The notes beneath the pieces were generated by a model. The model was not told the origin of the DNA. It made no database searches and saw nothing but the letters and a program-made list of their open reading frames with translations. Shown piece after piece: positions 2,364 to 9,859 of a stretch of DNA of 37,954 nucleotides (position 1 is its first letter; each line of letters opens with the position of its first letter). The translations under genes were made by a program, and so were the position numbers. Source of the stretch: Verrucomicrobiota bacterium (GTDB lineage Bacteria; Verrucomicrobiota; Verrucomicrobiia; Chthoniobacterales; UBA10450); the NCBI GenBank assembly GCA_003218975.1, contig QHPD01000115.1, positions 1 to 37,954 of the forward strand, written 5' to 3'.

Positions 2364-2668
2364 ACCGCAGATTACACGGATTACGCGGATATAAACGGAT
2401 CAGAATTAAGAGAATTGACCGCGGATAGCGCGGATGCAGACGAATGCAAGAGGAAGAGGAATTACCGGCGGGCTGGCGCAGATTCAAACGAACGACGGAG
2501 AAAGAGATTGACCGCGGATTACACGGATTTAAACGGATCAGAACTAAGAGAACTAAACCGCGGATGGCGCGGATGCAGACGAATGCAAGAGGAATTAACG
2601 GCGGATCACACGGATGTAGACGGATGATGGAGAAGTGAATTAACCGCGGATTACACGGATTTAAACGG
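2364..2668 (+). repeat. Upstream array of CGGAT-type repeats (6 units)
   Basis: Six irregularly spaced units (40-93 bases apart) of the form ACCGCGGATnnCnCGGATnnAnACGGAT. Their linkers also repeat, for example GCAGACGAATGCAAGAGGAA at about 2437 and 2575. ORFs crossing this array are repeat translations, not genes. Confidence 0.85.
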
Positions 2669-3079
2669 ATGACACACATGATCCACGAAGAACTTAGTCG
2701 CTCCATTATTGGCATCGCCATGGCGGTGCTAAACGAGTTGAAGCCGGGCCTCGATGAAAAACTATATGAGCGGGCCCTCGTGATTGAATTGCGACAATGC
2801 GGTCACAGAGTTGAAGCCCAACGCGTCTTTCCGGTCTCGTATCATGGACAAGTAATCGGATCTTTGACGCCTGACTTGATCGTCGATGACGCCATTATTG
2901 TAGATGCGAAGGTCGTAGCTGCGTTCACCGATGCGCACATCGCGCAGATGGTCGGATATCTGGCGATAACCGGGCTCGAACTGGCGCTGCTACTAAATTT
3001 CAAAAATGCGCGCCTCGAATGGAAGCGAGTTGTTAGGGAAGTTAAGAGGGACTCCCCGCCCCCAAATCTTCAGGTTTGA
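2669..3079 (+). CDS. GxxExxY family protein (PD-(D/E)XK-like)
   Basis: A 136-residue member of the GxxExxY family, a small group related to PD-(D/E)XK nucleases with no settled function. Residues 1-30 read MTHMIHEELSRSIIG, and the name-giving motif is at about 27-33 (GLDEKLY: G, E and Y correctly spaced). Then comes LVIELRQCGHRVEAQ and a possible catalytic core TPDLIVDDAIIVDAK, where D...DxK would replace the usual D...(D/E)xK. The rest (MVGYLAITGLELALLLNF) is typical of the family. The first ATG lies within the tail of a repeat unit; an alternative ATG is 9 bases later (MIHEELS), and the decayed copy at 9801 supports that as the conserved start. Repeat arrays flank it on both sides. Confidence 0.88.
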   Translation: MTHMIHEELSRSIIGIAMAVLNELKPGLDEKLYERALVIELRQCGHRVEAQRVFPVSYHGQVIGSLTPDLIVDDAIIVDAKVVAAFTDAHIAQMVGYLAITGLELALLLNFKNARLEWKRVVREVKRDSPPPNLQV

Positions 3080-3310
3080 TCCGCGTCATCCGCGTCATCC
3101 GCGTCATCCGCGTCATCCGCGGTTCTCTTTTTTGTCATCCGCGTCATCCGCGGTTAATCCCCACATCTTCAGATTTGATCCATGTTATCCGTGTAATCCG
3201 CGGTTCTCCTTTTTTGCCATCCGCGTCATCCGCGGTGAATCGCCGGATCGTCAGGTTTGATCCGCGTTCGCCGACGGACGAATCCGTCCAGTGGCGGATA
3301 ATCCGCGGTT
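3064..3310 (-). repeat. Downstream inverted array with reiterated gene 3' end
   Basis: It begins with a 9-base tandem (ATCCGCGTC) repeated four times from 3079, closing with ATCCGCGGT. Further reverse-oriented units are at 3137-3158, 3177-3204, 3217-3237 and 3259-3310. The last bases of the GxxExxY gene (AATCTTCAGGTTTGATCC at about 3064) recur at about 3164 and 3245, so the 3' terminus of the element appears to have been duplicated twice. The last unit contains the 29-base palindromic insert also found at 444-472. Confidence 0.8.
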
Positions 3311-3319
3311 CTCCGCTAT

Positions 3320-3907
3320 CTATCTCGGCGCAGGGCTAGGTGATTTGTGCGCCGGCGTTTTCTGCCCTTTTTTCTTTTCTGCTTTTTCTTTTTCTTCAGC
3401 GGCGATGGCATCGCGTTGCTGCTGCTCGTACCATCGAACGGACTGGCCGATGCCTGCTGCAATCTGCGCCTGATTGGCGTAATCGGACTTGGCAACGTCT
3501 TCAGCAATATTAAGATCATTGGTCAGCTGGGACGAGACAACTCCGAATTGGTACTGGCCGTCTGAGACCGTGCTCAGCGGATCGCCTTGCTGGATCATCG
3601 TAACCTTGGTCCCCGGCGCAAAACCGACGACACCCGAATCAATGTTGAGTGACACGCGCCGAAGCAAAAAGTACGTGCCTTCGGGCGCCAGACGCGGTTG
3701 CCTAGTTGCGACGGAACGAGCAGGCGTTGGTTTGGCGACTTGCACCTTCGCCGGCGTGGGGCGCGCAGCTGTCGCCGGCTTTGGCGGAGTGCGTTGCGCT
3801 TGAGGCCGGGCCACCGGAGGCGGCGGCTTCGGGGCAGGGGCGAACCAGTGCCATCCGAGATAGCCGAGGATCGCGATCGCGAGGATGGCCAGTAGCACGT
3901 TTTTCAT
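3320..3907 (-). CDS. Membrane-anchored protein with Pro/Ala linker and SH3-like domain
   Basis: A 195-residue hypothetical protein. Residues 1-22 form one hydrophobic segment (MKNVLLAILAIAILGYLGWHWF), a membrane anchor or uncleaved signal. Residues 24-75 are a Pro/Ala/Lys-rich linker (KPPPPVARP, KPATAARPTPAK), typical of spacers through the periplasm. Residues 76-130 (TYFLLRRVSLNIDSGVVGFAPGTKVTMI) resemble a small SH3-like beta barrel. The C-terminal 40 residues are a charged helix (AAEEKEKAEKKKGQK) likely to be coiled or disordered. No specific function can be assigned. The gene stands alone between repeat tracts. Confidence 0.75.
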   Translation of the reverse strand: MKNVLLAILAIAILGYLGWHWFAPAPKPPPPVARPQAQRTPPKPATAARPTPAKVQVAKPTPARSVATRQPRLAPEGTYFLLRRVSLNIDSGVVGFAPGTKVTMIQQGDPLSTVSDGQYQFGVVSSQLTNDLNIAEDVAKSDYANQAQIAAGIGQSVRWYEQQQRDAIAAEEKEKAEKKKGQKTPAHKSPSPAPR

Positions 3908-4363
3908 GATGCGCTTGATCTAACCACAAATGGACACGAATTAACGTAAATTGTAAATCCACAGATTTCACAGATTTTCGCAGAGGACCGCGGATTACGC
4001 GGATGATACGGATAACGGAGAAAAGGAAGGCGGTTTGGTTAACCGCCCCTAACAAATCGATCAGACAGGTAGGGGCGACTGACCTCAATCGCCCGAGGCG
4101 GTTTGGATGAATGGAGTCGGCGGGAGCCGAGCGAACATACACGGGAAGCCCAAGAGAGTGCGCGAGTGGCGCGAGCAAATCAACCGCCCCTACCTAATCG
4201 GCAGAGCAGAGGACCGCGGATCACCCGCCACGGCGGGCAGGCTACGGATGATGCGGATGCCGAATCTCGGACAGAATTAACAGAATGGACAAAAGGGGAT
4301 TCTGACAAATTCAGGCTATTCTGTCTAAGATCTGAACAGCGAAACAGACAAACAGCGCATTGA
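3908..4363. repeat. Gene-free repeat tract
   Basis: No supported gene. It holds an ATCCACAGATTTCACAGATT unit (about 3956), CGGAT-type units at 3984 and 4211, the second with a nested palindrome at 4224-4243, GGCGGTTTGGTTAACCGCCC-like stems near 4030 and 4170, and an ATTCTGT unit at 4262-4354. ORFs running through it read repeat sequence. Confidence 0.7.
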
Positions 4364-4761: not shown

Positions 4762-5635
4762 TGCCGCAGACTGTCACCGAATTAATTCCGATGGATGCGA
4801 ACCTCGGCCAGAATTTACAAAATGGGAGTGAGCATTCGGTTCATTCTGTTTAAAACTCTGAACTGCGCATGGCGCGGATTTTACGGGGATGTGATCCCAT
4901 GAACCACAGAGCATATGAAGAAATCCACAGATTTTACAGATTAGCGCAGATTGATTTTAAGAGAAAGCTAAGAAAGGAGTCAGGTAGCCACGATTGACCT
5001 CAATCGCCCAAGGCGAGAATCACACATCCTCAAAAAGGCGGTTAAGGTTAACCGCCTCTACCAGGGATCCCGTGGTGGAAATGAACCACGAATGGACACG
5101 AATGAACACTAATTGGCAAGGCAGAGACCGCGGATCGAACAGATGATCTGGATGCCGACTTCGGACAGAATTAACAGAATGGACAAAATTAATTCTGAGC
5201 ATTCGGTTCATTCTGTAAAAATAGAACCGCGGATGACGCGGATTTACGCGGATATGATTCGATTAAACACAGAGGACACGGAGCACGCAGAGGTCCAACC
5301 ACGAATCCGGCAGCTGCCGGACGAATGAACACTAATAAAATGACGAAGGACGAATGTCGAATGACGAAGGAATGAGAAATACGAATTCCACAAATGGAAC
5401 TAATTTTATTGGGGTCGATTCGTGTTAATTAGTGTCTGACTCTTCCTTCGTGATCTCTGTGCTCTCTGTGGTAAATGAGCTGGGAGCCTGGCGGCATCAT
5501 TCATTTAAACTTTCGACGTTGGGCGTTCGGCCTTAGCTCAAATAGAAGATCGTTTCGGCGAGGCGCCGAAACCAGCACGCGAGGCGCGTGCGCTCCCCGG
5601 ATAATTCGTGTTATCCGCGTTATCCGCGGTTCCCC
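4762..5635. repeat. Gene-free repeat tract before the pilus block
   Basis: No supported gene. Units seen include ATTCTGT-type repeats at 4805-4860 and 5160-5220, CGGAT-type units at about 4865 and 5226 (forward) and 5605-5632 (reverse), an ATCCACAGATTTTACAGATT unit at about 4922, a GGCGGTTAAGGTTAACCGCC stem at 5038-5057, and CACGAATGAACACTAAT units at about 5090 and 5300. The second of these carries the palindrome TCCGGCAGCTGCCGGA (5306-5321). Two further stem-loops, GTTTCGGC-GAG-GCCGAAAC-like (5551-5572) and GCACGCG-AGG-CGCGTGC (5575-5591), lie downstream of the secretin gene and could act as its terminator. Confidence 0.7.
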
Positions 5636-9679: not shown

Positions 9680-9692
9680 GGTTAAACAACAG

Positions 9693-9835
9693 AACCACGG
9701 ATTGCACGGATTTCACGGATAGGAAGATTCAAACATGAAGATCGCGCTGACCGTCTTTGTCGGGTTCTTGGGACCGCAACACTGAGCTCCTCATGAATCA
9801 TTCTGTAATGCGTGTTATCCGCGTAATCCGTGGTT
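9693..9835 (-). mobile_element. Deleted GxxExxY element with terminal inverted repeats
   Basis: A 143 bp unit whose ends are inverted repeats: AACCACGGATTGCACGGAT on the plus strand at 9693, and the complement of AACCACGGATTACGCGGAT ending at 9835. Read on the minus strand, after the repeat comes ATG at 9801 encoding MIHEELS, the same seven residues as the start of the intact GxxExxY protein, and near the other end ATCTTCATGTTTGAATC, resembling the end of that gene (ATCTTCAGGTTTGATCC). The middle of the gene is missing. It lies between the Amuc_1100-like and Amuc_1099-like genes. This resembles a MITE-like derivative; movement is inferred. Confidence 0.65.
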
Positions 9836-9859
9836 GAATTTGGCAGTCTCCGTTCGTGG

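Follow-up and report, generated by a model that had tools for sequence, protein, structure and literature searches.

Inverted arrays of short repeats bracket GxxExxY genes: a candidate mobile element with a PD-(D/E)XK-type nuclease

A GxxExxY gene and the two arrays of short repeats that flank it in opposite orientation very probably make up a single element. The gene lies on a 37,954-nucleotide stretch of DNA, referred to as the window, which is contig C90 of a metagenome-assembled genome (3.06 Mb in 165 contigs) of a Verrucomicrobiota bacterium. An earlier note, made from the letters of this DNA, had proposed a candidate element here and had placed it correctly, at about 2364-3310. The proposal has held up well: inverted arrays bracket 90% of the GxxExxY genes sampled, their polarity is fixed, the repeat unit co-varies with the protein, and both occupied and empty sites exist. 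On balance, we favor a reading in which this is a compact element, mobile or formerly or recently mobile, whose nuclease acts on its own arms. The GxxExxY family is widespread and, to our knowledge, without an assigned function.

Architecture of the Window Locus

The gene runs from 2669 to 3079 on the + strand, or from 2678 to 3079 if an alternative in-frame start is used. Its left arm (2364-2675, + strand) consists of 13 units of the form C[AG]C[GA]GAT, arranged in some six to seven clusters that begin AACC or GACC; the right arm (3079-3312, - strand) holds 13 units in five clusters, each the reverse complement of a left-arm unit, and has ATCCGCGGTT at its outer end. In both arms a cluster contains two to three or more units at a spacing of about 9 bp. 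Orientation is uniform, with 13 units on the + strand and 0 reversed at 2340-2700, and 13 reversed and 0 forward at 3060-3320. The layout described earlier, units before the gene and their reverse complement after it, therefore stands, the number being 13 per side and not six. Complementarity from arm to arm amounts to about 70-100% over stretches of 19-37 nt; what had been called a large inverted repeat consists of two arrays in opposite orientation and not of a single repeat that matches base for base. The inverted score of the locus is 21, compared to a mean of 10.1 and a maximum of 15.5 for dinucleotide shuffles (0/1000 reach 21). The lag-9 score is high for the right arm (35 versus a shuffle maximum of 12) and weak for the left (10, a value reached by 18/1000 shuffles).

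The first in-frame ATG, at 2669, falls within the last GGATG unit, and it is possible that the start codon of the gene belongs to a repeat unit, as had been suggested. This is true for the ATG at 2669; however, the in-frame ATG at 2678 is a better fit to the start that is usual in the GxxExxY family.

The unit type of the window gene is concentrated around it, and further gene-less pairs are present on the same contig. One of these, at 9690-9838, is an inverted pair of CACGGAT units, the same type as in the arms of the gene (9696-9720 on the + strand, 9817-9832 on the - strand). A second inverted pair of GGAT type without a GxxExxY gene is found at 48-485 (48-63, +; 426-485, -), and its right arm at 430-485 is 93% identical to 3255-3310. 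An ACAGAAT-type gene-less inverted pair forms a palindrome at 5165-5216, the right-hand half of which also occurs at 1-47, 203-249 and 4817-4863, and a run of forward arms at 3922-4013 (+) has three unit types in series (CACAAAT, CACAGAT, CGCGGAT). At 5224-5632 inverted pairs are nested: an outer GGAT-type pair (5224-5243 and 5613-5632) encloses an AGAG-type pair (5268-5292 and 5446-5470), inside which lie a GAAT-type pair and a short array of 7-bp period. The nested pairs, which differ in unit type, apparently reflect one insertion after another. Composite blocks of several arm types are also duplicated locally, at 79-96% identity (1-120, 203-249, 4817-4918 and 5184-5290; 309-374 and 4182-4247; 430-485 and 3255-3310), and a small GC-rich palindromic insert, CCCGCCRCGGCGGGCAGGCTACGG, is seen within arms at 136-160, 345-374 and 4225-4247; it is perhaps another miniature repeat.

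Generality of the Arrangement

The source genome has 8 GxxExxY loci, 2 of them broken, and on reading the flanks, all 8 were found between inverted arrays of about 9-bp period with a unit that differs per locus. These units include CGCAGAGGA, AGAATNAAC, CGCAGATTT, CACGAATTA, CACGAAGGA and CACAGATNA; the unit at the broken copy on contig C107 is degenerate. The window unit belongs among them, and the repeat, which had been taken as one sequence, is in fact a family in which each gene lineage has its own unit.

A general sample of 242 non-redundant loci was drawn from relatives within the family and the phylum and from further phyla in a named set, and a locus was counted as bracketed at an inverted-arm score of at least 13. 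Inverted arms are present at 89.7% of these loci, and the same score is reached by 1.0% of outer flanks (700-1050 bp out), 7.3% of flanks swapped between loci and 8.8% of control ORFs from the same DNA (n=91); at about 10% of the 242 loci no arms were detected. Units point inward at both flanks (upstream 126 forward and 17 reverse; downstream 18 forward and 122 reverse), and the outer ends read T-T-[AC]-A-C-C on each side. GxxExxY genes elsewhere thus carry flanking arrays in fixed orientation at 90% of the loci, contrary to one of the two refuting conditions in the earlier note. The array period peaks at 9 bp, with 8 and 10 bp also above controls, and the median element length is 465 bp. Bracketed loci are distributed among Planctomycetota, Bacteroidota, Acidobacteriota, Nitrospirota, Desulfobacterota, Omnitrophota and others. 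In one clade of GxxExxY genes (L065, L066, L068, L073, L074), arms of 8-bp period, CAGGAAAC, extend into the N-terminal coding sequence.

The origin of the window in a metagenome-assembled genome of 165 contigs could point to an assembly artefact, or the layout could be due to chance, but single-contig genomes (G181, G147, G158) and named isolates show the same layout. With 90% of the 242 loci bracketed and none of the 1000 shuffles matching the score of the window, this explanation is refuted and retains a negligible probability.

Repeats with and without the Gene

The dimer CRCRRAGNNCRCRRAG was counted in 145 genomes of the phylum, where it tracks the gene (p = 2e-15). Genomes that have the gene (69) contain 4159 matches, compared to 502 for the reversed control, and those that lack it (76) contain 445 compared to 305. 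The repeat is therefore not equally common where the gene is missing, contrary to the other refuting condition, although some excess is observed even in 16 of those 76 genomes. Arrays are more numerous than genes, and short convergent gene-less pairs number 44 in 12 genomes, versus 0 in the control. In two genomes that were compared, gene-less pairs have common arms and unrelated loops; as the loops are not homologous, the pairs are not copies of one master. Gene-less arrays best matched the arms of resident genes in only 2 of 5 genomes.

The surplus of gene-less arrays over genes, and their occurrence in some genomes without the gene, would suit a passenger gene, flanked by accident by repeats of separate origin (slippage or another transposase). 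This is very improbable in view of the 90% bracketing, the period, which is particular to each gene family (9 bp in most cases, versus 7 bp for the S23 genes discussed below), and the co-variation of unit and protein.

Regarding this co-variation, arm similarity between non-syntenic pairs in different genomes is 0.10 at the lowest protein identities and climbs with identity to 0.55; for copies in the same genome it stays at about 0.12. The protein tree requires 43 changes of unit class, where 50 shuffles gave 127 on average and never fewer than 120, and the class is common to a gene and its nearest non-syntenic homolog in 108 of 186 cases, with 23.5 expected. Homologs from different phyla at 75-82% identity often have common arms, an example being L249 from Planctomycetota and L259 from Desulfobacterota. 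Such co-variation across non-syntenic sites and phyla is the pattern expected of a unit that moves whole. No near-identical copies within one genome were found among the genomes examined. Copies in the same genome (Verrucomicrobiota) have a common unit class in 6 pairs where 13 are expected, a weak signal that hints at exclusion.

Occupied, Empty and Altered Sites

Insertion polymorphism at single sites is evident in three gaps, between what we take to be ahcY and metK, dxr and cdsA, and selB and selA, the names being read from sequence and not from annotation. The ahcY-metK gap contains an element in the source genome and some relatives, while in others it is empty with contiguous flanks; in one genome (G044) both arms are kept and most of the gene is lost. 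In G033, G014, G054 and G030 the same gap holds S23 genes, where relatives hold GxxExxY elements. The dxr-cdsA gap contains four unit types: relatives have an ACAGAAT-type or CACGAAT-type element with the gene, gene-less pairs of the CACGAAT, CACAAAG and CACGACG types, a remnant, or nothing. The third pair of genes, selB and selA, abut in empty genomes and are elsewhere separated by an element with the gene or by a gene-less one. Both occupied and empty sites, which the earlier note had suggested comparing between close strains, therefore exist. The flanks in the closest such comparisons are only about 80% identical, and those of a Bacteroides pair considered for exact junctions just 69-77%. 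Since several genera carry the ahcY-metK element, part, and perhaps much, of its distribution may be due to old insertion or descent followed by loss and not to recent movement.

No signal of a target-site duplication above chance was detected at 87 loci (mean of 2.83 nt at their own ends versus 2.75 nt when shuffled), a result compatible with 2-nt duplications or imprecise ends. Empty sites in relatives have no arms at all. This weighs against a homing-type element, in which the nuclease would cut units elsewhere and recombination between arrays would copy the element in, with spread only to sites that already have units: arms seem unnecessary at the target, and the arrays of an occupied genome would themselves be cut if they had no protection. 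The many gene-less arrays in genomes with the gene and the nested pairs of differing unit type are in keeping with homing, which we nevertheless consider unlikely.

The GxxExxY Protein

The window protein matches TIGR04256 at 123.4 bits (cut-off 35) and PF13366 (PDDEXK_3) at 116.9 bits (cut-off 22). Its active-site residues are E30, D69, D79, K81 and a QxxxY motif (Q93, Y97); E30, D69, K81, Q93 and Y97 are invariant in 62/62 sequences, and position 79 is E in 61/62, the window protein having D. An AlphaFold2 model of the protein (pLDDT 93.5) has Cas4, lambda-type exonucleases and Holliday junction resolvases as structural neighbors, all at modest scores. The best Foldseek matches, LHK-Exo and Cas4 SSO0001, are likewise modest (E about 3e-4, TM 0.50-0.55), as is the VIA comparison with 4ic1 (Z 9.9, rmsd 4.0, 102 aligned), and a sequence search of the PDB with the protein gave no match. 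The resemblance to PD-(D/E)XK nucleases that the earlier note had mentioned is borne out by the motif residues and by the fold matches to Cas4 and LHK-Exo; judged from sequence and model, the protein is a predicted nuclease of the RecB/Cas4 type with its active-site motif set intact. The dN/dS ratio is about 0.06 (35 pairs, with dS saturated). GxxExxY genes were found in 8 of 72,556 plasmid records, in 3 viral contigs and in none of the phages searched.

Proposed Mechanism and RNA-Level Alternative

The nuclease most likely acts on its own arms. It would recognize the units either as duplex or as a hairpin that the two arms could form, and a nick or cut would allow the element to excise, copy or insert. 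Internal deletion would give rise to gene-less arm pairs, which may still move in trans. Because a target-site duplication is absent, insertion by single-strand transfer or break repair would be expected rather than DDE-type cut-and-paste.

A different explanation places the element at the RNA level. Intervening sequences of 23S rRNA carry S23 genes between inverted repeats, and these terminal inverted repeats are cut sites of RNase III (PMC4990558). By analogy, the GxxExxY arms would be the stem of a transcribed hairpin that is folded or processed out and so tolerated in operons; the protein would act on RNA or on nothing in particular, and other machinery would move the element. The loci examined by their neighbors lie between protein genes, many of them within apparent operons, and the window element folds far better than its shuffles (z -9.1, 20 shuffles), but any inverted repeat would fold well. 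S23 genes, which encode unrelated proteins (four-helix bundle, TIGR02436), have the same layout in the same genomes (L041-L045, L352-L381), with inverted arms of 7-bp period in 20/25. Conversely, GxxExxY has the full, strongly constrained motif set of a RecB/Cas4-type DNA nuclease, and no Rfam family was found at the gathering threshold. We regard the RNA-level explanation as unlikely, and as distinctly less probable than action of the nuclease on its arms.

Comparison with Known Systems

The rRNA intervening sequences are similar in being compact (428 nt in Coxiella) and in enclosing one small gene in a stem formed by terminal inverted repeats; the GxxExxY element differs in its protein, its periodic-array arms and its place between protein genes. 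The S23 genes of the genomes examined do have periodic 7-bp arms, at intergenic sites.

RAYT genes with REP/REPIN repeats (PMC3116915) are the nearest working analogy, not a class to which the element belongs: both combine short repeats on either side of a nuclease gene in the chromosome with inverted doublets that lack the gene and occur throughout the genome. This comparison, already drawn in the earlier note, holds for the layout and fails for the type of enzyme, RAYT being a tyrosine (HUH-type) transposase and GxxExxY a PD-(D/E)XK nuclease (TIGR04256), and for REPIN-like populations, as gene-less GxxExxY pairs share arms and not loops in the two genomes tested. GxxExxY arms are also arrays of 8-10-bp period, with several gene-arm types per genome.

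Insertion sequences and MITEs share with the element a gene between inverted ends, gene-less deletion derivatives and insertion polymorphism; however, GxxExxY is not a DDE, HUH, serine or tyrosine enzyme, and its element has array ends, no target duplication that could be seen and no near-identical copies per genome. Foldback elements of eukaryotes resemble the element in that short tandem repeats make up their long inverted ends, but their arms are far larger than those of GxxExxY.

No description of a GxxExxY gene with its arms as an element was found in the literature, which was searched in open access only, so that this absence is no proof. GxxExxY is little mentioned there, one passage concerning RT neighbors, and the exact repeat strings occurred in unrelated papers only. 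The arrangement might represent a separate class of bacterial mobile element, made up of a small accessory protein that co-evolves with its periodic inverted arms. The protein family would determine the period (8-10 bp with GxxExxY, 7 bp with S23), and movement would involve neither target duplication nor a known transposase or recombinase; we put this forward tentatively, at a little under even chance.

Implications

If the GxxExxY gene and its arms do form an element whose nuclease acts on those arms, a role could be assigned to many GxxExxY genes, and intergenic repeats of a type that is common yet unnamed, seen as runs like CACGAAGGACACGAAGG, could be attributed to them. As the units vary in step with protein lineage, they would serve as ready protein-DNA pairs for studies of specificity, and the parallel with S23 would be relevant to the long-standing question of the spread of rRNA intervening sequences.
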